A stretch of DNA of 64,000 nucleotides from an uncultured Flavobacteriaceae bacterium (GTDB lineage: Bacteria > Bacteroidota > Bacteroidia > Flavobacteriales > Flavobacteriaceae), in assembly GCA_947494325.1 (NCBI GenBank), contig CANLUS010000002.1, positions 434,001-498,000 of the forward strand, given 5' to 3'. This document shows, in pieces, positions 13,045 to 23,432 of the stretch. The first letter of the stretch is position 1; each line of letters begins with the position of its first letter. A program made the translations under genes and the position numbers. Under the pieces are notes generated by a model. It saw only the letters and a program-made list of their open reading frames with translations, was not told where the DNA came from and made no database searches.

Positions 13045-13653
13045 TTAATTAATTATTTTTTTCTTTCCTAAGACGTCATGTATCGATGCATAGTCTTCAT
13101 CTGTACTAAATCCTAATGGTACATGCACTCTTGTTGTACCCCAACCTAGTGTCATCACAATTTTATTCCTTTCTTGTTTTCTAAAACTAATTGCAAATGT
13201 TTCAATATTCTCTCCTTTACGAACTGGTACTGTCGTTCGGGCTACATCAAACATAGCGTCATATTGAAAGGCTCCTATTACATCAGTATTACTACTTATA
13301 ATAACTTCCCATTCTTGCATATTTGGAATTGTATATAGTACATATGTGCCCGCTTCTATAACTGTATCACCAAATACAACTTTATTATAAAATCTAATTT
13401 CAGTTGCCTCATTTGCTCCTGTTCTCCACAATTCATTAAATGGAACTTGAGTACCAAAAACATCTTTATTACCGTTGTTTGATGGCCTTCCATAAAGAGC
13501 TTTGACCAATGGCTTTGTAATTCTCGTTTCTCGGTAATATGCAATGTCATGAGGTGTCTCATCTACTTTCACAGACCCTTGTGAAAATACTGGAGCTATG
13601 ATTATTAAAGTTAGAATTAGGATAATTATTCTTCGGTTAACTGACTTTTTCAT
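13045..13653 (-). CDS. DUF2911 exported protein
   Basis: 202 residues with a signal peptide ending near F-S-Q-G. The core is diagnostic of DUF2911: 'K-A-L-Y-G-R-P', 'P-F-N-E-L-W-R-T-G-A-N-E-A-T' and 'A-G-T-Y-V-L-Y-T-I-P'. The biochemical role of the family is unknown. It is preceded by a copy of the bipartite (C/G)AGGA-N15-TTGT motif ending 44 bases before the start codon, which links it to the sigma/FecR regulon further downstream. It is monocistronic with its own terminator. Family assignment is strong. Confidence 0.9.
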   Translation of the reverse strand: MKKSVNRRIIILILTLIIIAPVFSQGSVKVDETPHDIAYYRETRITKPLVKALYGRPSNNGNKDVFGTQVPFNELWRTGANEATEIRFYNKVVFGDTVIEAGTYVLYTIPNMQEWEVIISSNTDVIGAFQYDAMFDVARTTVPVRKGENIETFAISFRKQERNKIVMTLGWGTTRVHVPLGFSTDEDYASIHDVLGKKKIIN

Positions 13654-13697: not shown

Positions 13698-13734
13698 ATA
13701 AAGACAATCATATCATAAAAACTCCTGAAAAAAA
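13698..13734 (-). promoter_or_regulatory. ECF-type promoter motif, copy 1 (DUF2911 gene)
   Basis: Minus strand: TTTTTTTCAGGA (13734-13723), exactly 15 bases, then TTGTCTTTAT (13707-13698), 44 bases before the ATG at 13653. The same arrangement with the same 15-base spacer occurs at six other sites between 14.4 and 22.6 kb. Repetition with fixed spacing upstream of start codons is the evidence for a shared sigma-factor promoter. Confidence 0.72.
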
Positions 13735-13977
13735 TACTTTTTTTTTAATATTTATTTTAATATGCTGAGAATATGCATGTTAAACAATAATTAAATATTA
13801 GTTCATTATTCAATTTTGTGCAGAGGTATGATCTTAACTCAATAATTAGACGCTCAAAGTTTATATGATATAAAGTAAAAATGCCTTAACCGGATTGGTT
13901 AAGACATTTTCAAAATTCCCCTTTTTATTATTATTTGCTATTAAAGTGGCTTATTTCTATTGCTATTCACATTTTCT
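13735..13977. other. Intergenic stretch between DUF2911 gene and the next minus-strand gene
   Basis: AT-rich sequence lying upstream of the copy 1 promoter motif. I see no ORF with coding character and no RNA gene. The only structured element is the terminator hairpin at 13880-13908. Confidence 0.6.
13880..13908 (-). terminator. Terminator for the 133-residue secreted protein gene
   Basis: A 12-bp stem with one mismatch (13880-13891 with 13897-13908) and a 5-base loop. On the minus strand it runs into TTTTTAC. It is located 70 bases after the stop of the minus-strand gene that ends at 13978. Confidence 0.75.
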
Positions 13978-14379
13978 TTAATCATTCATTGCAACACCAT
14001 CTTCGGATATCACAGCGACCAACTTACGTGCAGCAGATACCTTAATTTTAGACGTAATTACAAAATTCGAGGTGTATAAACGAATATTATAATCTCCTGC
14101 TGCTATTTTAGATTTATCAATTTCACATTGAGATCCGTTATTTCTTGAACTATATACAGGTTCGTTTGTTTTTGTATCTAGTAATTGATATTTATAAAAA
14201 CTATCCGAAGCTTCTAACTTCATGTTTTCTTTACTACTATCATCGTAAATGGTTAAGGCTACAGATCCATCAGGAGCCATTGTGACATACTTTAAACGTT
14301 GTGGCCCGCTTTGGTTCGTTTGTGCAAAGGTTGATACTGAGATTAAACATGCTATTATGGCTAGGGTTAATTTTTTCAT
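13978..14379 (-). CDS. Small secreted protein, unrecognised beta-rich family
   Basis: 133 residues with a clear signal peptide (M-K-K-L-T-L-A-I-I-A ... S-T-F-A-Q). The mature part alternates hydrophobic and polar residues and contains 'A-A-G-D-Y-N-I-R-L-Y-T-S', reminiscent of beta-sandwich modules such as C-terminal sorting-domain folds. No lipobox or catalytic motif is visible. I do not recognise the family. It carries copy 2 of the shared promoter motif 42 bases upstream and its own terminator, so it is probably a single-gene member of the sigma/FecR regulon. Confidence 0.78.
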   Translation of the reverse strand: MKKLTLAIIACLISVSTFAQTNQSGPQRLKYVTMAPDGSVALTIYDDSSKENMKLEASDSFYKYQLLDTKTNEPVYSSRNNGSQCEIDKSKIAAGDYNIRLYTSNFVITSKIKVSAARKLVAVISEDGVAMND

Positions 14380-14421
14380 GACAATTTTTTTGGGTTTATT
14401 GTAATTACTTTCTCTTTCATT

Positions 14422-14457
14422 ATTAAGACAATCACTCTTTAAAAATTCCTGAAAAAA
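14422..14457 (-). promoter_or_regulatory. ECF-type promoter motif, copy 2
   Basis: Minus strand: TTTTTTCAGGA (14457-14447), 15 bases, TTGTCTTAAT (14431-14422), 42 bases before the ATG at 14379. Beyond the core, copies 1 and 2 also share a T-rich start to the spacer and a GATTGTCTTWA block. Confidence 0.72.
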
Positions 14458-14572
14458 GTACTATTTATTTTAAAAATAAATATAACTTATTGTTTATGAG
14501 CGTAATAAATTTCATGTTTGTTATTATAAATTACTATCAATTTAGTGCTAAAAACATATATTCATAAAAAAA

Positions 14573-14597
14573 CTGCTTCAATTTTATATTGAAGCAG
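14573..14597 (-). terminator. Terminator for the lipocalin-like/YP-repeat operon
   Basis: A perfect 10-bp stem (CTGCTTCAAT at 14573-14582 with its complement at 14588-14597) and a 5-base loop. On the minus strand it is followed by seven T. It lies about 98 bases past the stop at 14695. The rest of 14458-14694 is AT-rich and shows no gene. Confidence 0.8.
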
Positions 14598-14694
14598 CCG
14601 TTGAGAATTAAATCGAAAAAGTTAATATATCTTCCCATTCCTGAGCCATTTGATGTAGCTCTATACTATTTTTCATTTTGATATTTAATTTCTC

Positions 14695-15153
14695 TTATCT
14701 TTTTTGAAAGGTTAACAGATCAGTTGCTCCATTACCTCCACTTATATCAATTAAATCAATCTTAGAGTTACTTATTGATACAATCTCCCAATCATCAGAT
14801 AGTTCTTCAAAGTTGGGTGGTGAGGAGAATGAAATATTAAAATCAATATCTCCGTCATTACTGCTACTACTATCGACCGTCACAGACCAGATTCCATCTA
14901 TAGTAGTTGAACCATTGGTAGCTGTTAACGTACCGTTATCATTAAAAGTAAAATCATAACCATTGTAGTCATTGGTTTCATTTTCTCCCGAATCTATATA
15001 ATTCGATATATACCAAGTTCCAGATTTGGCTATAGTTATGGCATCTTGAATACTTGTGCTATCTATTGTATCATCTGACGAACAACTTAATGAGGTCAGT
15101 GATAAGATCAAAAAACACAAAACACTTAAAAAATACTTGCTTTTTTTCGTCAT
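14695..15153 (-). CDS. Lipocalin-like lipoprotein
   Basis: I place the start at the ATG at 15153 rather than the GTG 21 bases upstream, because the signal peptide then begins M-T-K-K-S-K-Y and runs to the lipobox L-S-C. The mature protein (152 residues in all) is a beta-rich module with 'S-G-T-W-Y-I-S-N-Y' and 'F-T-F-N-D-N-G-T-L-T-A'. This resembles lipocalin-like domains and the C-terminal modules of the two larger lipoproteins next door ('G-F-x-F-N-F-x-T-D-G-T-I-S-V'). It follows the 15177-16253 gene by 23 bases and is probably co-transcribed. The ligand is unknown. Confidence 0.82.
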   Translation of the reverse strand: MTKKSKYFLSVLCFLILSLTSLSCSSDDTIDSTSIQDAITIAKSGTWYISNYIDSGENETNDYNGYDFTFNDNGTLTATNGSTTIDGIWSVTVDSSSSNDGDIDFNISFSSPPNFEELSDDWEIVSISNSKIDLIDISGGNGATDLLTFQKR

Positions 15154-15176
15154 ATTATGTCTAAATAAATACACTT

Positions 15177-16253
15177 CTAATTACAGGTACTTTCAAATCG
15201 TAAACGCTGGTTTCCTAATCGAAAATCTATCTTAGTCTCTCCTGGCTCTTCTTCTATTTCATGTACGAACCAACTACCATTAAAATCAGGTAATGTTGCT
15301 ATAACTATCATAAATCTCAAATTGTTTCCTGACCCTGAAACACTCCAAGTGCCAGAATGATTTGTAGCGTCATCTTGTACGGAGATTGTTCCATCTGTAG
15401 CAAAGTTGAACGTAAAACCAGTATATAGATCTTCCAGATCATTATTATTTCTCTCTAATTTATCTACAAACCAGTTTGCGCAGGTAGTAATAAGGTCAGT
15501 TACTTGAGTCGTCGTACAACCGTTACAATCATCATTAAAATCAAAGTCATCATCTTCATCACAATCATCTTTTATGGTATCAATGATTGTTTCTAATTCA
15601 GAAAGTGAATTTGCTGTCATTTGACTATTATCAAATAGAATCAAAGTAACAGGAAAATTAATTCGAGCCACATCATCTACACTTAAATCTTCGATAAATC
15701 TATTTAATTGATTGTCATTATTTATGGTAATGGTATTTGTTTGCTCAGTGATTGTATTAAATACTATAGCACTTATTGGATACAAAAAATCAACGCATTC
15801 AATATCATCGTCCTCTTCATTTTCACCATTACAACTGGCAGCAAGACCATTTAATTGATCTTGATTATTTACTACAACATCAGAATAATCTGTTAACAGT
15901 ACGGTAATAGGAAAGTTAATGACTAAGGTATCGGTGTCTGTATCTGATGCATTAAAAATAGTTTCTACAGTATCGAAATCATCTTCGGTGTTTATAGTAA
16001 TCGGCGTGCCATTAGCCATAACTGTTATTGGCAATTCAATATCTAAACAATTGGCGAAATCGATAATGTTATCATCAGACCCATCATTTAAGGAAACCCT
16101 TTTTAAGAGATTTGCAAGTTTAGAATTTGTTTCTAAAATTGAATTGTTATCGGGCGATGTTATAGATTCATCACTTCGACACGAAGTAGCAAGAACTAAT
16201 AATACCGTTAAAAGCGGTATTATCTTTTTTGTTTTGTTAAGTATAGTTTTCAT
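15177..16253 (-). CDS. YP-repeat lipoprotein with C-terminal lipocalin-like module
   Basis: A 358-residue lipoprotein (lipobox at A-T-S-C, about residue 25). Residues about 65-235 hold four related beta-beta-alpha units. Each has an L-P/F-P/Y-P-I/V-T/S strand ('I-E-L-P-I-T-V', 'I-N-F-P-I-T-V', 'F-L-Y-P-I-S-A', 'I-N-F-P-V-T-L') followed by a polar strand and an 'x-x-L-x-x-I' helix. An acidic Cys-containing run ends the block (D-D-C-D-E-D-D-D-F-D). The last about 105 residues form a lipocalin-like domain. It is closely similar throughout to the 16399-18315 protein minus that protein's FN3 domains. A copy of the shared promoter motif lies 19 bases before its start. I know no name for the repeat; a ligand-binding surface lipoprotein is the best guess. 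Confidence 0.85.
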   Translation of the reverse strand: MKTILNKTKKIIPLLTVLLVLATSCRSDESITSPDNNSILETNSKLANLLKRVSLNDGSDDNIIDFANCLDIELPITVMANGTPITINTEDDFDTVETIFNASDTDTDTLVINFPITVLLTDYSDVVVNNQDQLNGLAASCNGENEEDDDIECVDFLYPISAIVFNTITEQTNTITINNDNQLNRFIEDLSVDDVARINFPVTLILFDNSQMTANSLSELETIIDTIKDDCDEDDDFDFNDDCNGCTTTQVTDLITTCANWFVDKLERNNNDLEDLYTGFTFNFATDGTISVQDDATNHSGTWSVSGSGNNLRFMIVIATLPDFNGSWFVHEIEEEPGETKIDFRLGNQRLRFESTCN

Positions 16254-16272
16254 AATTGGAGGATTATATACT

Positions 16273-16307
16273 ATAAAAACAACCTAAATCGAATATATCC
16301 TGAAAAA
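16273..16307 (-). promoter_or_regulatory. ECF-type promoter motif, copy 3
   Basis: Minus strand: TTTTTCAGGA (16307-16298), 15 bases, TTGTTTTTAT (16282-16273), 19 bases before the ATG at 16253. It drives the 15177/14695 lipoprotein operon if real. Confidence 0.74.
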
Positions 16308-16398
16308 TATTTATTTATTTTTAAAACACACTAAATATTTAATGTTGAGTCATAGATATTCAATTTAGTAAACCAAGAAAATTTTATTGAAACTGGCG

Positions 16399-18315
16399 TT
16401 AATTACAGGGTGTTTCAAATTTTAATTTATCTTGAGTCCCTTGTGTAAATTCGATATCTTTCCTGTCAGAATGATCATGTACATGTTTTAAATCCCATAC
16501 AAGGTTAAAATCAGGCAATGTAGGAATTGTAATGGTTATCTTAGTTCCGGCTCCAGTTCCCACTTGTAACCAAGTGCCAGAATAGGTTGTACTCCCATCG
16601 AATACAGAAATTGTACCATCCGTAAAGAAATTGAAAACAAATCCTGCGTAGACATCTTCAAGTTTATCACCATTACGTTCTAATTTTTCTACGGTCCAGT
16701 CGCTACAGGTTGTCAACACACTCAATTCTCCACTTAATGGTGCCGATTGTATGGTGATCGAAACGTTGTTACTCAAATTAGAAGAGTTGCCTTCGGCATC
16801 TTTAGCAAGCACCTGAAAATCATATGTTTCTTCAAAGGTCAAATTTGGAACAGTATGGGTCGTTGTAGTGACAAACTCTATGAATACACCATCCATATAT
16901 ACGTCATATCCTACAACCCCAATATTATCAGTAGATGCATCCCAAGTGAGATCTACTATATTTTCTACAGTATTTCTAGCCGCTAGATTAAGTGGTACAC
17001 TTGGTGCCTCTGTATCACCGGCCAGTGCAAGCGTTGTTACATTGGCGGGATTACTACTTGACGAACTATTGCCAGCAGCATCTTTTGCTATCACAGTAAA
17101 TGTATATGAAGTACTCGCAGTTAAACCTGAAACATTGTATGCTATATTAGCAGTAGTACCTATTAATGCTCCATTATTATAAACATCATAACCAGTAACA
17201 TCTATATTATCTGTTGCAGCATCCCACGTCAAGTCTGTTGTTGTTTGGGTTGTATTTGAGCTCATTAAATTAATTGGAGTAGATGGCGCAGTAAGATCGA
17301 GAGACGCTAAGGTCGTAACTGATACTTCATTACTTACTAAAGAACTATTCCCCGCAGCATCTCTCGCTATAACGGTAAAAGCATATAACGTATTAGACAT
17401 AAGATCATTCATTATGATCGAAGTACTCTCGGTTAAAATAGATAGAGCTCCATCGATATAAACCTCATAATTTTTTACTCCGATATTATCGACAGAAGCA
17501 TCCCAACTTAAATCAACATTCGTTTCGCCAATATTTGATGCGGTCAAATTAAGAGGTGTAGATGGGTTTTGCGTATCATTAAAATCGTTATCTAAATAAT
17601 CAAAGTCATCATCTTCATCGCAATCATCTTTTACGCTTTCTATCAGAATTTCCAACTCTTCAAGGCTTGTAACTGTTTGTTGAGAGGCATCCGATAAAAC
17701 CAAGGTAACCGGGAAATTTAAGCTCGCTACATCGTCTACGCTTAAATCTTTGACAAATAGAAATAACTCAGCATCATTCTCTATGGATACATTGTTTGAT
17801 TGCTCTGTAACCGTATTGAATACGGTGAAATTAATCGGAAACAAAAAATCAATACATTCTATATCATTATCTTCTTCATCTTCTCCTGTACAAGTTTCTG
17901 CAAGTGCATGCAATTCATTTTCATCATTGAGCATTACTTCGGTGTAATCTGTCAATATTGCAGTTACTGGAAAATTCATAATCACCATATCAGTATCCAC
18001 TGACGATTCTTCAAATATGGCACGTATCATATCTAAATCTTCGTTAGAACTTATGATAACTGTTCTTCCATTCGCGATAACGGTTACAGGCAATTTAATT
18101 CTAAAGCAATTGGCCAAATCTATAATATTATCAATAGAACCGTCATTCGTGGCAACATCTCTTATAAGGCTTGTAATAGTAGCATTATTTTCCACTATAC
18201 TATTTTCATTATCAGGTGAAGTAACAATATCTTCATACCTGCATGATGAGAATAAAGCGATAATTATCGCCATGAATAGAATTAATTGATAGGCTTGTTT
18301 TAATAAGTTTTTCAT
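16399..18315 (-). CDS. YP-repeat lipoprotein with three FN3 domains and lipocalin-like module
   Basis: The frame opens at a GTG at 18411, but the ATG at 18315 gives a proper signal peptide (M-K-N-L-L-K-Q ... F-S-S-C) and lies just downstream of promoter copy 4, so I use it (638 residues). Domains in order: four YP units (about 69-240), fibronectin type III repeats at about 250-337, 343-430 and 437-523, and a lipocalin-like domain (about 530-638). The FN3 repeats are close copies of each other ('D-L-T-W-D-A-S-T-D-N-I' recurs), indicating recent duplication. Compared with its neighbour at 15177, the FN3 block looks like an insertion between two conserved modules, acting as a spacer or adhesive stalk at the cell surface. 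Confidence 0.86.
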   Translation of the reverse strand: MKNLLKQAYQLILFMAIIIALFSSCRYEDIVTSPDNENSIVENNATITSLIRDVATNDGSIDNIIDLANCFRIKLPVTVIANGRTVIISSNEDLDMIRAIFEESSVDTDMVIMNFPVTAILTDYTEVMLNDENELHALAETCTGEDEEDNDIECIDFLFPINFTVFNTVTEQSNNVSIENDAELFLFVKDLSVDDVASLNFPVTLVLSDASQQTVTSLEELEILIESVKDDCDEDDDFDYLDNDFNDTQNPSTPLNLTASNIGETNVDLSWDASVDNIGVKNYEVYIDGALSILTESTSIIMNDLMSNTLYAFTVIARDAAGNSSLVSNEVSVTTLASLDLTAPSTPINLMSSNTTQTTTDLTWDAATDNIDVTGYDVYNNGALIGTTANIAYNVSGLTASTSYTFTVIAKDAAGNSSSSSNPANVTTLALAGDTEAPSVPLNLAARNTVENIVDLTWDASTDNIGVVGYDVYMDGVFIEFVTTTTHTVPNLTFEETYDFQVLAKDAEGNSSNLSNNVSITIQSAPLSGELSVLTTCSDWTVEKLERNGDKLEDVYAGFVFNFFTDGTISVFDGSTTYSGTWLQVGTGAGTKITITIPTLPDFNLVWDLKHVHDHSDRKDIEFTQGTQDKLKFETPCN

Positions 18316-18338
18316 AAATTTTAGCGCATCTATGCGTA

Positions 18339-18368
18339 TGTATAACAATTGACCTGAATAAAATCCTC
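18339..18368 (-). promoter_or_regulatory. ECF-type promoter motif, copy 4 (diverged)
   Basis: Minus strand: GAGGA (18368-18364), 15 bases, TTGTTATACA (18348-18339), 23 bases before the ATG at 18315. The T-run is missing and the first base of the pentamer differs, but the spacer length is the same as in the strong copies. Confidence 0.55.
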
Positions 18369-18507
18369 TAAAGGAATCGTGTTTTTTTTTAAAATTTTGA
18401 AAAAAAACCACCTTTTAAATGGTTAAAATAATTAACTAAAATACATTTCTATTAAAGTTATTTTTTTACTTTTACTCTTCCTAACCCCGCTAAGCTAATT
18501 TTATAGT

Positions 18508-19014
18508 ATGAATAACTCCATTTGTGATGAGAAAGTATATGCGTCTATCTATAAAGACTACTCCCAAGACTTACACAATTATCTTTATTACAAGTATGGT
18601 GACCAATTTAATATCACCGATAAGGTTCAAGATGCGTTTATAAAATTATGGGATAAATGCAAAGAAGTAACTTTTGAAAAAGCAAAAGGCTTTGTTTTTA
18701 TGGTTGCAAAGAATTTAGTGCTCAATGAAATTAAACATCAAAAGGTTGTTTTGAAGCACCAAGAAGTAAAACCAAAAGACTACACCAATGAAAATCCGGA
18801 GTTTTTATTAGAGAAAGAGGAGTTTTATCAAAAATATCAACGAGCGCTAGCAAAACTTAGTGAAGAACAACGTGTTGCTTTTCTATTGAATAAAGTTGAA
18901 GAAAAAAAACATCAGGAAATAGCTGATATGCTCGATATTACTAAGAAGGTTGCTGAATATCGGATCTATACAGCCTTTAAAATAATTAAGTCAGAAATAA
19001 AAGAATTAAAATAA
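18508..19014 (+). CDS. ECF RNA polymerase sigma factor of a cell-surface-signalling system
   Basis: 168 residues. Region 2 spans about 10-80 ('I-T-D-K-V-Q-D-A-F-I-K-L-W' and 'A-K-G-F-V-F-M-V-A-K-N-L-V-L-N-E-I-K'). Region 4 spans about 115-165 ('L-S-E-E-Q-R-V-A-F-L-L' and 'E-K-K-H-Q-E-I-A-D-M-L-D'). It is followed by fecR and a TonB transducer on the same strand. It would be held inactive by FecR until the receptor binds its ligand, then direct transcription of the regulon. The shared promoter motif is absent upstream of this gene but present twice just downstream of it, before fecR. Synthesis of the sigma factor may therefore be independent of its own activity. Confidence 0.93.
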   Translation: MNNSICDEKVYASIYKDYSQDLHNYLYYKYGDQFNITDKVQDAFIKLWDKCKEVTFEKAKGFVFMVAKNLVLNEIKHQKVVLKHQEVKPKDYTNENPEFLLEKEEFYQKYQRALAKLSEEQRVAFLLNKVEEKKHQEIADMLDITKKVAEYRIYTAFKIIKSEIKELK

Positions 19015-19018
19015 ATTG

Positions 19019-19056
19019 TTTTTTTTCAGGAGTTATTGAAAACGAGTTGTTTTTAT
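19019..19056 (+). promoter_or_regulatory. ECF-type promoter motif, copy 5 (distal, upstream of fecR)
   Basis: TTTTTTTTCAGGA (19019-19031), 15 bases, TTGTTTTTAT (19047-19056). It begins five bases after the sigma-factor stop codon and is repeated in tandem 92 bases further on. Confidence 0.72.
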
Positions 19057-19110
19057 ATCGAAATGTAGTTAAAAACGTCGATAGTTTTGAAATAAAAGTA
19101 AATTTTATCA

Positions 19111-19148
19111 TTTTTTTTCAGGACAATTGAATAGTAAATTGTTTTTAC
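19111..19148 (+). promoter_or_regulatory. ECF-type promoter motif, copy 6 (proximal, upstream of fecR)
   Basis: TTTTTTTTCAGGA (19111-19123), 15 bases, TTGTTTTTAC (19139-19148), ending 17 bases before the fecR ATG. A tandem of two identical-spacing motifs suggests duplication of the promoter. Confidence 0.74.
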
Positions 19149-19165
19149 AATAAATACCATACAAC

Positions 19166-20086
19166 ATGGACCAAGATGAATTAATAAAAAAATGGTTATC
19201 CGATGAGCTCTCTCAGCATGAAATTGAGGAGTTTAAGAAGTTAGATGACTATGATTTAAACATAGAAATTTTAGAAGGTGCGAAGCAATTTAAAGCTCCG
19301 CAGTTTTCGGCGGTCGACAATTATGAAGTATTGAAATCTAAACTGACTACTTCTCCTGTACAAGAAGAAAAACCAGTAATAAAATTAAATGCGATTAAAG
19401 TATTGTCTAGAATTGCGGCGATATTTGTAGTTGGCTTAGGATTGTACTTTGCCTTTTTTACGAATGATCTAACAACTGTACAAACCTTGGCCAGTAATCA
19501 AGCTACCTTTGAATTGCCTGACGCTTCTTCGGTAACCTTAAATGCGGCGTCTGAAGCTTCTTTTAATAAGAAAGATTGGGCAACTAAAAGACAAGTTAAT
19601 TTAGAAGGTGAAGCCTATTTTAAAGTAGCTAAAGGTTCAAAATTTGACGTTATTACTTCTGACGGTACCGTAAGTGTATTAGGAACACAATTTACAGTAA
19701 ATAATCGCAAAGATTATTTTGAAGTAAAATGTTTCGAAGGTATTGTTCGTGTAGCAACAAATGGTGTCACTGAAACCCTAACTAAAGGAAAAACGGTAAG
19801 AGTGACTGGGAATAAAGTTTCTAAGGATGTTATAGTAAATGAAGATCCAGAGTGGTTGCACAATAAAAGTAGTTTTAACAGCGTTCCGTTTTTCGAAGTA
19901 ATAAATGAATTCGAAAGGCAGTATAACGTAACTATTTCTACTGAAGATATTGATACCACAATTATATTTACTGGAGGATTTGTCCATACTAATTTAGAGC
20001 AAGCATTAAAATCTATAACAGTACCCCTTGATTTATCAACTAAGAAAAATAACGAAACTAATATTACCCTATACAGTTCTAAATAA
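19166..20086 (+). CDS. FecR-family anti-sigma factor
   Basis: 306 residues. The cytoplasmic N-terminal segment (1-78) is followed by one membrane helix (about 80-98). The periplasmic FecR domain comes next (about 105-200: 'F-E-L-P-D-A-S-S-V-T-L-N', 'V-N-L-E-G-E-A-Y-F-K-V' and 'V-L-G-T-Q-F-T-V-N'), then a C-terminal DUF4974-like domain (about 235-302) with 'F-E-R-Q-Y-N-V'. In cell-surface signalling the N-terminus binds the sigma factor and the C-terminus contacts the STN domain of the receptor. Those partners are the adjacent genes. Two promoter-like motifs precede it. Its 3' end overlaps the receptor frame only if a TTG start is used for that gene. Confidence 0.93.
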   Translation: MDQDELIKKWLSDELSQHEIEEFKKLDDYDLNIEILEGAKQFKAPQFSAVDNYEVLKSKLTTSPVQEEKPVIKLNAIKVLSRIAAIFVVGLGLYFAFFTNDLTTVQTLASNQATFELPDASSVTLNAASEASFNKKDWATKRQVNLEGEAYFKVAKGSKFDVITSDGTVSVLGTQFTVNNRKDYFEVKCFEGIVRVATNGVTETLTKGKTVRVTGNKVSKDVIVNEDPEWLHNKSSFNSVPFFEVINEFERQYNVTISTEDIDTTIIFTGGFVHTNLEQALKSITVPLDLSTKKNNETNITLYSSK

Positions 20087-20111
20087 AAGACATAAAGGCT
20101 TTATTTCTTCC

Positions 20112-22574
20112 ATGCTTTTTATTTTTTTATTTAATTTTTATTCAAACGCCCAACAAAGTAAAGTACCACTAATTACTATTCTTACTCAACTAGAAAAAAC
20201 TGGTAATTATCAATTTACATACGCCAACGATGTTATCGATGGCGTCTTTGTTTTACCCCCTCCTATTTCTCTTACTTTTAAAGAAAAAATTGCCTTTTTA
20301 AAGAAAAAATCTGGATTGGATTTTGAATTCATTGACAACACCTTCATCGCAATTAAACGGAGCAATAAACTTATTTCTATATGTGGCTATGTTTTAGATA
20401 AAGAAACAGGCATGCCGTTGGAAGCTGTTGCCGTATTAGGGTCTAAAGAACAAGTAATTACCGACGCTTATGGTTATTTTAAAATGGAAGCCTTAGTATC
20501 TGAAGATATAGAAATTAGATACTTAGGGTTTATCCCAATAAATATAGCCGCTAACGCAGTTAGCATTGGCGTTTGTAAAAATATATTTTTAGAAGCAGAT
20601 ATAGAATCTTTATCTGAAATCGTCCTTTCTAATATATTCGCTAGTGGTATTAACAAAGTAACTGATGGTTCCTTAAACATTAATTTTTCAAATTTTGGGA
20701 TACTTCCAGGATTGATAGAAGCAGATGTATTACAAACAATACAAACATTACCTGGTATACAAAGCGTTAATGAAACAGTATCAGATATTAATATTAGAGG
20801 TGGTACTAATGATCAAAACTTGATCCTATGGGATGGCATCAAAATGTATCAAACGGGTCACTTTTTTGGCTTAATTTCTGCCCTTAATCCACAAATAACC
20901 AATGAAGCAACTGTTATCAAAAATGGAACCTCCGTTGATTATAGCGATGGGGTATCGGGTACCATCGCAATGAAAACAGACAAGAAAGTTAATAATTCAT
21001 TCTCTGCAAGTATTGCTACAAACTTTATTAGTTCTGATGTATTTGCTGATATCCCTACTAGTCAAAATTCGTCACTACAAGTAGCAGCACGTAAGGCAAT
21101 TACAGGTTTTGGCGATACTCCAACCTATAAAAAATATTTTGATCGGATACAACAAGGTACAGAAGTTGGAAACTTTGACAATGGTAATGCCTCATTCGAT
21201 TTTTACGACACTAGCTTACGCTGGATCTATGATCTTTCGGATAAAGATCAAATAAAAGCGAATTTCATCTATATAGATAATAATCTTTCCTTTTTAGAAA
21301 GTGAAACTGTAAATACTGTAACTCAATCTAGAACCAGTAGATTAGAACAAAATACCCTTGCGAGTGGCTTATCCTATAAAAGAGCATGGAATGACTACCT
21401 TACCACTACCCTACAAGTTAGCAATAGTGAGTATAAATTGGGAGCTAATAATGTTGACGTGCTTCAAGCCAATCGTCTAACCCAAGTCAATAAAGTCGAA
21501 GAAACTTCGACTAAATTGAATTCTTGGCTTACAATTAATGATGAGTTATCTCTCCTCAACGGATATCAGTTTACAGAAACCGCTGTTAATAATTTAACAG
21601 GTGTGGATAATCCTGAGTTTACACGGTTTGTACGTGAAGTAATAAGAGAACATGGCGTCTATTCTCAATTAAACTATACTAACGACCGTACACATATTAA
21701 ATTAGGAGCGAGATATAATTATATCAAAAAATTCAATAAACATATTATAGAGCCAAGGCTCAGTGTACATTATGAATTAGCCGAAGGATTCAGCGTCGAG
21801 CTATTAGGTGAATTCAAACATCAAAACACGATGCAAATCATTAATTTTCAAAATGATTTTTTTGGTGTCGAAAAACGAAGATGGTTCTTGTCAAATAATA
21901 CGACTCGACCCATAATTCAGAGTAAGCAGGTTTCGGTGGGTTTAAATTATGCACTTAGCGGCTGGTTAATTAGCGCCGATGGTTATTTTAAAAATGTTGA
22001 TGGTATTAATGCACCGACTCAAGGTTTTGTGAATCAATATATTTTTAGTGATGCCATAGGCTCTTATGACGTGTATGGAATTGATTTCTTATTGAATAAA
22101 AAAATCGACAAGTTAAGTATGTGGTTAAATTATTCATTTGCTAACAATGAGTATACGTTCAATTCTCTGGAAGAAATAAATTTTCCAAACAATTTAGACA
22201 TTAATCATAGTATTAGCTTTGGCACTTCTTATACAATGAATGATTTCAAAGTTTCGGCCGGTCTTAATTGGCGCACCGGTATTCCTACCACAAAACCCAT
22301 TGCTGGAAACGAATTTTCAGAAAATAGCATAAACTATGCATCCGCCAACAGCAGTAATTTAAACGAATATCTTAGAATTGATGCCTCTGTTACCTACAGA
22401 TTCAACTTAACAAATCGAATTAAAGCGCAGGCAGGCGCCTCAGTATGGAACGCATCAAATAATAACAACACCATTAGTTCTTTCTATAATTCAGATGATC
22501 AAGGAAATGTGTCAAAAATTTCAAAAAACGCCTTGGAATTGACTCCAAATGTGAGTTTTAGGGTGCTATTTTGA
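20112..22574 (+). CDS. TonB-dependent transducer with STN domain
   Basis: The frame is open from a TTG at 20028 inside fecR, but the ATG at 20112, 25 bases after the fecR stop, gives normal spacing and a short signal ending Y-S-N-A-Q. The TTG form would add a basic K-R-H-K stretch, so the start remains uncertain. Domains (820 residues): STN (about 20-85), carboxypeptidase-regulatory-like (about 90-180), plug (about 195-310, with 'I-N-I-R-G-G-T-N-D-Q-N-L-I-L-W-D-G-I') and a beta-barrel to the end. The STN domain marks it as a signal-transducing receptor working through FecR. No SusD partner is present; the YP-repeat lipoproteins may fill that place. Ligand unknown. Confidence 0.9.
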   Translation: MLFIFLFNFYSNAQQSKVPLITILTQLEKTGNYQFTYANDVIDGVFVLPPPISLTFKEKIAFLKKKSGLDFEFIDNTFIAIKRSNKLISICGYVLDKETGMPLEAVAVLGSKEQVITDAYGYFKMEALVSEDIEIRYLGFIPINIAANAVSIGVCKNIFLEADIESLSEIVLSNIFASGINKVTDGSLNINFSNFGILPGLIEADVLQTIQTLPGIQSVNETVSDINIRGGTNDQNLILWDGIKMYQTGHFFGLISALNPQITNEATVIKNGTSVDYSDGVSGTIAMKTDKKVNNSFSASIATNFISSDVFADIPTSQNSSLQVAARKAITGFGDTPTYKKYFDRIQQGTEVGNFDNGNASFDFYDTSLRWIYDLSDKDQIKANFIYIDNNLSFLESETVNTVTQSRTSRLEQNTLASGLSYKRAWNDYLTTTLQVSNSEYKLGANNVDVLQANRLTQVNKVEETSTKLNSWLTINDELSLLNGYQFTETAVNNLTGVDNPEFTRFVREVIREHGVYSQLNYTNDRTHIKLGARYNYIKKFNKHIIEPRLSVHYELAEGFSVELLGEFKHQNTMQIINFQNDFFGVEKRRWFLSNNTTRPIIQSKQVSVGLNYALSGWLISADGYFKNVDGINAPTQGFVNQYIFSDAIGSYDVYGIDFLLNKKIDKLSMWLNYSFANNEYTFNSLEEINFPNNLDINHSISFGTSYTMNDFKVSAGLNWRTGIPTTKPIAGNEFSENSINYASANSSNLNEYLRIDASVTYRFNLTNRIKAQAGASVWNASNNNNTISSFYNSDDQGNVSKISKNALELTPNVSFRVLF

Positions 22575-22615
22575 TTATTGAATTATCGTTTTTTTCACTA
22601 ATTCTTCAATAAAGT

Positions 22616-22645
22616 GAGGAGTTTAGGCCTTTTAGTTGTTTTATA
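22616..22645 (+). promoter_or_regulatory. ECF-type promoter motif, copy 7 (diverged)
   Basis: GAGGA (22616-22620), 15 bases, TTGTTTTATA (22636-22645), 106 bases before the ATG at 22752. It keeps the exact spacer but lacks the leading T-run. It is weaker evidence than copies 1-3, 5 and 6. Confidence 0.5.
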
Positions 22646-22751
22646 ATAGTAGACCAATACTTATTACTTTTCTTAAAATTGTAACTTGAGACTAAGTTGT
22701 AGTATTTGGTTTAACAAAATAAATGAACTTTCAAATTAATATAAAAGAATT

Positions 22752-23432
22752 ATGAAATCAGAAAAAAATAAAATAAAGTTTGTTTTAATGACTAGTCTTT
22801 TATGCTTGTCATTAGTACTTTTAAATTCTTGTCAATCCTCTGAGGAAGAATTTGTATTCAAATCAGATTTAACATTCACAAAAGATTCTAAGATCGTTTC
22901 ATTGCTGTTAGCTTCTGTTGAAAATAATTCACAGAACACTTTCTCAAAAAACATAACGGATGATGAACAATGTACTCAATTTGTTTATCCTATGACTTTT
23001 TATGCATATTATAATGATGACACAGAACCGACTGCGGTTCAAATAAATAGCGATGAAGAACTAACAGATTTTTTAACTGCCTTAACAAGTGGTCAGGAGT
23101 TTTTTATAATGTATCCAGTGACTTTAGTTGATATCGATGGTGTGGAAACAACAATATATGACTATCCTGATTTAGAAGGAATATTAACAATGCTTGTAGA
23201 TGCTTGTGGTAGAGATACAGATGATAATGACGACTCAGATGATGATGACAATAACGATGATGGCGATGACAATGATGGCGATGACAATGATATTGATTAT
23301 GAGTATTGTGGTAATAACAATAAAAAAGTAGTAATCTGTCACAATGGAAATTCAATTTGTATCAGTATTAATGCAATATGGGGACATATGGCTCATCATG
23401 AAGATGATTATTTCGGGAGCTGCAGTAATTAA
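22752..23432 (+). CDS. YP-repeat lipoprotein with Asp-rich linker and C-H...H...C tail
   Basis: A 226-residue lipoprotein (lipobox cysteine at residue 27). It has one pair of YP units (about 74-152; 'F-V-Y-P-M-T-F' and 'M-Y-P-V-T-L'), the same module that is doubled in the two larger lipoproteins of this locus. Residues 155-183 are almost all Asp, Asn and Gly in D-D-N-D-G-D-D-N-type repeats, suggesting calcium binding. The tail contains V-V-I-C196-H197, then H212, H215, H216 and C224 before the end. This resembles the K-V-x-I-C-H...A-H-x-x-H-x-D...C motif seen at the ends of many bacterial surface proteins. A metal-bound surface lipoprotein is likely; the function is not known. Confidence 0.82.
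   Translation: MKSEKNKIKFVLMTSLLCLSLVLLNSCQSSEEEFVFKSDLTFTKDSKIVSLLLASVENNSQNTFSKNITDDEQCTQFVYPMTFYAYYNDDTEPTAVQINSDEELTDFLTALTSGQEFFIMYPVTLVDIDGVETTIYDYPDLEGILTMLVDACGRDTDDNDDSDDDDNNDDGDDNDGDDNDIDYEYCGNNNKKVVICHNGNSICISINAIWGHMAHHEDDYFGSCSN

Follow-up and report, generated by a model that had tools for sequence, protein, structure and literature searches.

A putative ECF sigma factor promoter with a fixed spacer and clade-specific -35 versions at surface-signalling loci of Flavobacteriaceae

The window analysed here, a stretch of 64,000 nucleotides from an uncultured Flavobacteriaceae bacterium (contig CANLUS010000002.1, positions 434,001 to 498,000), carries seven copies of a two-box motif around the gene for an extracytoplasmic function (ECF) sigma factor (18508..19014, plus strand). 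Judging from sequence comparison, the motif is very probably the promoter of this sigma factor, within a surface-signalling system of the FecI/FecR/FecA kind, with TCAGGA as the putative -35 box and (A)GTTGTTNTA as the putative -10 box, 15 bases apart. The motif, its spacer, position and conservation, and its association with the sigma factor clade and with one residue of the sigma factor, were all computed from the genomes. The first-pass annotation of the window had taken the fixed spacing as the mark of a sigma factor promoter rather than of a chance repeat, a view that is supported by the spacer and position being kept across genera and by the agreement of the -35 version with the sigma clade.

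The sigma factor (168 amino acids; PF04542, PF08281; Tyr151 in the recognition helix) has sigma regions 2 and 4 only, as ECF factors do. Its gene adjoins those for a FecR-type anti-sigma factor with the C-terminal signalling domain FecR_C (19166..20086, plus strand; 306 amino acids; PF04773, E 6.4e-19; PF16344, E 2.8e-8) and a TonB-dependent receptor (20028..22574, plus strand, start codon uncertain; Plug domain), the neighbours expected in surface signalling.

Conservation of the motif and its spacer

All seven copies proposed in the first-pass annotation are present at the places and on the strands it gave, AGGA and TTGT being separated by exactly 15 bases in each, and the five that it called strong (5/5) are exact matches to CAGGA-N15-TTGTYTTWAY. 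Three exact copies lie on the minus strand, at 13698..13727, 14422..14451 and 16273..16302, as predicted promoters of the genes for a DUF2911 protein, a 133-amino-acid protein and a lipoprotein whose family is conserved beside the sigma factor (the core lipoprotein), respectively. Two lie on the plus strand before fecR, at 19027..19056 and 19119..19148, with the fecR start 17 bases beyond the second. The remaining copies carry GAGGA: one, at 22616..22645 (plus strand; three mismatches), is the predicted promoter of the downstream lipoprotein gene, and the other, at 18339..18368 (minus strand), occupies the orthologous lipoprotein-promoter position, divergent from the sigma gene. The copies face start codons at distances that we measured as about 17 to 109 bases, close to the 17-106 given before; in keeping with a promoter, the boxes form a pair with constant spacing and face a gene. 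The gap between sigma and fecR, where the tandem pair at 19027-19148 sits, is long; a single copy and a gap of ~50 bases are usual in relatives.

The exact pattern was found five times in the 3.64-Mb genome, every time in this locus, against 0.14 sites expected from base composition (P(≥5) = 4e-7, an optimistic value because the pattern had been fitted to these very copies). With three mismatches allowed, the 22 matches in the window equalled background (21.7 expected), and therefore the exact copies alone are significant by this pattern; the GAGGA copy at 18339-18368, spotted by reading the sequence, is not among the window matches with up to three mismatches. A wider genomic regulon of near-matches was rejected, since up to two mismatches gave 113 sites versus 102 for the reversed control. 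The genome-wide background check suggested in the first-pass annotation thus set the exact copies above background, but not the near-matches.

A non-circular test used a matrix built from 66 CAGGA promoter sites at the loci of other genomes, the window being excluded. Its six best window matches, with scores from 16.5 to 30.0, were the five exact copies and the copy at 22616 (matrix span 22608-22649): the core-lipoprotein promoter came top (30.0) and the 22616 copy second (27.1), followed by the first (24.1) and second (20.3) copies before fecR and those before the genes for the 133-amino-acid (17.4) and DUF2911 (16.5) proteins. The next window match scored -1.2, and three rounds of shuffling gave top scores of -2.8, -0.4 and 11.0. 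The copy at 18339 (matrix span 18335-18376) scored -2.5, at rank 8; the argument for it lies in its position, orientation and spacer, and in the GAGGA variants that 4 of the 80 named relatives described below have at this place.

Among the 397 genomes of the family, 254 encode a relative of the core lipoprotein (E up to 1e-6) and 273 one of the receptor (E up to 1e-60), similarity counts that do not by themselves imply the whole locus. At 60 loci with receptor matches, picked from the listed matches and mostly one per genus, the sigma, fecR and receptor genes follow in that order in all 60, and the lipoprotein gene is divergent and within 900 bases of the sigma gene in 58; the exceptions are L162, from the genus of the window, without a lipoprotein match, and L169, where the match is located elsewhere. 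In the 118 promoter regions of this set (60 sigma-fecR gaps and 58 lipoprotein upstream regions), AGGA-Nk-TTGT with k = 15 was found in 80 regions. No region had k = 14 or 16, and no other k between 5 and 30 was seen in more than 5; shuffles gave ~0.3. The check on orthologous loci that the first-pass annotation had called for accordingly found the 15-base spacer kept.

A second, named set comprised the best 80 of at least 548 lipoprotein relatives from a contig scan, 16 of which overlap the earlier loci and 64 of which are new. The sigma gene is divergent upstream in 80/80, and 79/80 have a 15-spaced site under a permissive -35 pattern; AGGA-Nk-TTGTT occurs with k = 15 in 58 and with k = 8 in one, and nowhere else in the range 8-23. 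Fourteen named loci fell outside the class patterns first used, carrying variants such as GAGGA, AAGGA or CAGTA with the spacer and -10 box kept, except at L382. Because GAGGA recurs at lipoprotein promoters of relatives, it is a natural variant there, as at 18339. The layout of a lipoprotein gene divergent from sigma-fecR-TonB receptor genes recurs across Flavobacteriaceae.

Two further observations concern variation among these loci. In Winogradskyella and Flavivirga (L322, L328, L342, L363 and others), lipoprotein promoters have CAGTA or GAGGA/AAGGA, with the spacer, -10 box and Tyr151 unchanged. Within the genus of the window, neither G119 nor G314 matches the core lipoprotein at 1e-6. A receptor is present in G119, along with a GTAGGA-class promoter, and G314 has no receptor match at 1e-60. 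The CAGGA system may have been gained or lost within this genus.

The -35 versions and residue 151 of the sigma factor

For the class analysis, 81 loci were considered: the 60 above, 20 paralogous loci and the window. Their fecR promoters fell into CAGGA-like (38), GTAGGA (18), GTAGGG (14), TTGGGA (5) and other (6) classes. The fecR and lipoprotein promoters were of the same -35 class at 65 of 76 loci. The 11 discordant or unclear cases comprised four mixing GTAGGA with GTAGGG, three combining AAGGA with the CAGGA class, three unclear at both promoters (L174, L251 and L252, which were given no class) and the window itself, with CAGGA at fecR and GAGGA at the lipoprotein promoter. In the tree and residue analyses, the three loci whose fecR promoter has AAGGA were assigned to the CAGGA class (class C) by their lipoprotein promoter; at L247, and perhaps L258, the lipoprotein-promoter site chosen by the script is visibly second best, and the rows were kept.

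Placed on the sigma tree, the -35 class requires three changes, the minimum possible, compared with an average of 33 in shuffles. Two systems of different -35 class share one genome in 14 genomes, with that of the window as the fifteenth. By this comparison, it is the sigma factor rather than the genome that the -35 version goes with. A strict pattern has the two local sites in each of the five TTGGGA genomes, plus one further match in one of them.

Among sigma factor columns with up to 30% gaps, residue 151 had the highest mutual information with the -35 class: Tyr was found at 41/41 CAGGA-class loci (including the three classed by lipoprotein promoter), His at 5/5 TTGGGA loci and Lys at 32/32 GTAGG loci, while L252 has Asn. 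Counting single sites, we found A in the second place in 77 of 81 with Tyr, TGGGA in 10/10 with His and T in the first place in 61 of 64 with Lys. The 64 new named loci gave Tyr with A in 53/53 and His with G in 9/9, the remainder being one His locus without a site and one TGGGA locus without a residue call; because none of them has Lys, the only out-of-sample case for the Lys rule is the genome of the window. Other residues also co-vary with class (145, 148 and 155 in the recognition helix, 120 and others), for which reason residue 151 is a candidate.

In an alignment of the recognition helix that takes the sigmaE letters to be correct, residue 151 falls on S172 of sigmaE and T171 of SigW. 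These two residues contact base -34, and R176/R175 contact base -35 (PMC6713349). The helix and the contact position would thus be those of region 4 of Escherichia coli sigmaE and Bacillus subtilis SigW on -35 DNA, whereas the residue here is Tyr, His or Lys and the -35 sequence is a different one (PMC6713349).

Residue 151, in the recognition helix of region 4, probably helps to set the first two -35 bases (Tyr, CA; His, TG or CG; Lys, TA), and we lean slightly towards a one-residue code in which it sets them. If it holds, such a code would prevent duplicated surface-signalling systems of a flavobacterial cell from mixing, since each would have its own promoter and a small lipoprotein-rich regulon. 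In the paralogous pairs, nature offers a direct test of how cross-talk between duplicated sigma factors is avoided. The comparison as a whole yields a concrete predicted promoter together with its natural variants, a candidate for the specificity residue and a conserved group of predicted lipoprotein targets, all testable in many environmental isolates.

Ownership of the promoter and the putative regulon

The genome of the window encodes a second such sigma factor (L034, G000:C1 at about 301.4-302.7 kb), 57% identical to the first and with Lys at the position of Tyr151. GGTAGGA-N15-TTGTTATAT stands in its sigma-fecR gap; its FecR is short, without FecR_C, and no receptor lies within the 3.2 kb covered. 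Ten exact TAGGANTT-N12-TTGTTNNA sites of this TAGGA type are present in the genome (for example C2:52102, C2:349884 and C3:267006; L278-L287), none of them within an open reading frame (ORF) of more than 42 codons, and they look as if the second sigma factor had a regulon dispersed over the genome. By eye, MscL-like and DUF2911-like proteins are among the targets.

This second factor lends some substance to the idea that the motif copies are real ECF promoters, some of which are read by more than one ECF factor, in which case the locus would have no single owner. Both GAGGA copies are one mismatch from the TAGGA-type pattern, which makes their owner less certain, and a gene that is DUF2911-like by eye lies behind a TAGGA site. 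The five CAGGA copies, however, are not among the listed TAGGA-type matches with up to one mismatch, and CAGGA and TAGGA differ at the position that residue 151 tracks across the examined loci; we regard shared ownership as unlikely. The earlier assignment of the motif to the adjacent ECF factor stands as far as the comparative evidence and the tracking by residue 151 go; it is less secure for the GAGGA copies, and the sigma gene itself falls outside the regulon.

Binding of another conserved regulator, encoded elsewhere, would account for the fixed spacing too, which would also suit a dimeric activator. Against such a regulator, neither box repeats the other, and in the copies examined both face the gene; where one genome has paralogous systems, the -35 version goes with the sigma clade; and the residue that tracks the version aligns with the -35-contacting residue of sigmaE and SigW (PMC6713349). 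We consider it very improbable. That the copies are chance or dispersed repeats without function, which the T-rich, AT-rich intergenic DNA might invite, is hardly conceivable, being contradicted by the conservation of spacer and position across genera and by the matrix from relatives.

With the motif read as the promoter of the adjacent ECF factor, we scanned 45 genomes with the strict pattern TCAGGA-N15-TTGTTHWA and obtained 107 sites in 39 of them, compared with six for the reversed pattern. (In a recount, 106 sites lay in the given loci, one of them from G037, outside the 45 genomes, and two core sites of G267:C2, L246, were added, giving 107.) They divide into 57 core promoters, 26 sites within ORFs of at least 200 codons and 24 elsewhere; given the second group, we rejected the view that every strict match in relatives marks a target. 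Judged by pattern and by eye, 13 of the 24 precede genes with a lipoprotein signal, five precede genes with a signal-peptide-like start (one 131 bases from its site, one with a GTG start), four precede genes for proteins of 48-49 amino acids and two are unclear; hence 18/24 further intergenic copies precede genes for lipoproteins or secreted proteins. Ten of these lipoproteins were scanned for families, with two CHRD, two DUF4382, one Fib_succ_major and one Lcl_C (weak, below the cut-off) as the result, and no family in four. The proteins of 48-49 amino acids have a membrane-like stretch and are encoded behind strict motif copies near the locus (L206, L158:9731-9874 and L150:9672-9815).

No like-oriented ECF-type site was found upstream of the sigma gene at any of the 81 loci (L259 having only a few upstream bases), and autoregulation of the sigma factor was rejected on this count. 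TAnnTTTG, the Bacteroidota housekeeping -7 box (PMC7366714), occurs upstream of the sigma gene at 23 of 80 loci versus 4.7 in shuffles. Because there is no ECF site before the sigma gene and TAnnTTTG is enriched, the sigma factor is probably made from a housekeeping promoter.

We infer a chain of binding, transcription and signalling along the following lines. The sigma factor would be expressed from its housekeeping promoter and held by FecR; on ligand binding, the N-terminal domain of the TonB-dependent receptor would signal to FecR, a step suggested by family membership, and the sigma factor would be released. It would then transcribe the fecR-receptor genes, as feedback, together with a small set of genes for surface lipoproteins and secreted proteins.

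Several points count against this interpretation. The -10 boxes of the window copies (TTGTTTTTA, TTGTCTTAA and alike) differ slightly from the TTGTTNTA of relatives, and because of this deviation the strict pattern of relatives matches nothing in this genome. The 26/107 strict sites in long ORFs look like chance, above the six of the reversed control. The agreement of class with clade is partly linkage, because promoters and sigma factor adjoin and are inherited together, and the sigma tree was built on all columns, region 4 included. Four Tyr-associated sites have CGGGA. TAnnTTTG is missing upstream of the sigma gene at 57/80 loci, the window among them by inspection. Finally, STN was not detected in the receptor fragment of the window, the start codon of which is uncertain.

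In the E. coli ferric citrate system, FecI/FecR/FecA, as here, an ECF sigma factor, a FecR anti-sigma factor with FecR_C and a TonB-dependent receptor are present, and the receptor gene, not the sigma gene, is under a sigma-dependent promoter. Unlike there, fecR is here predicted to be on the sigma-dependent promoter with the receptor gene, with the sigma gene before it excluded. Lipoproteins and secreted proteins make up the other predicted targets, and no transport operon was seen. Promoters have reportedly been predicted per group in an ECF reclassification study.

The nearest published kinds, in the literature searched, are the PM2-type and SM6 promoters. PM2 of Bacteroides thetaiotaomicron, a second promoter motif (-10/-30) linked to SigW-1 and SigH-1 (PMC7366714, PMC12596196), is likewise an ECF-linked two-box Bacteroidota promoter with TGTT near -10, but it is described as near-palindromic and tied to oxidative-stress genes; the comparison is by description. 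The SM6 motif of Flavobacterium psychrophilum is, like ours, a flavobacterial ECF-type promoter class, but has CGT in the -10 region, and its targets include genes for type IX secretion as well as a pair of ECF and anti-sigma factors (PMC9723704). The motif was not found in the searched portions of the literature (including PMC9723704, PMC12596196, PMC13088901, PMC6713349 and PMC7366714; supplementary files lay outside the search), and an earlier description is possible; nor did we meet, in the same literature, a defined promoter for a flavobacterial FecR-type surface-signalling sigma factor.

Genes of the locus

Nine genes between 13045 and 23432 make up the locus. No SusD family was found by Pfam among their proteins, where a SusC/SusD polysaccharide utilisation locus would have a SusD-like lipoprotein beside the receptor. 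The FecR_C domain of the anti-sigma factor occurs once in the genome, in which a shorter FecR without FecR_C is present elsewhere. In the receptor orthologue at L127, the N-terminus matches FecR_C (7.4e-7) and, weakly and below the cut-off, STN (1.4e-4); the receptor fragment of the window matches neither.

The core lipoprotein (15177..16253, minus strand; 358 amino acids; predicted target) is not named by Pfam or NCBIfam. Its N-terminal part had no convincing match (sliding-clamp matches at probability ≤0.25). Its C-terminal domain has a resemblance to DUF4847 (4zgf), at E 0.0041 by profile and 3.7e-3 by Foldseek, with no match at 0.001 or better, and the fold thus offered no lead to a function. 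Behind it, possibly on the same transcript, is the gene for a small lipoprotein-like protein (14695..15153, minus strand) with a PLCC match below the cut-off. The lipoprotein encoded at 16399..18315 (minus strand), a predicted target with fibronectin type III domains, has an N-terminal region in common with the core lipoprotein, 46% over 297 residues.

The outer predicted targets on the minus strand are a DUF2911 protein of 202 amino acids (13045..13653; PF11138, E 1.1e-39) and the 133-amino-acid protein (13978..14379), which has no Pfam family; both have a signal-peptide-like start. At the other end, the predicted target behind the copy at 22616 is an Asp-rich lipoprotein of 226 amino acids (22752..23432, plus strand), with weak similarity to relatives of the core lipoprotein.

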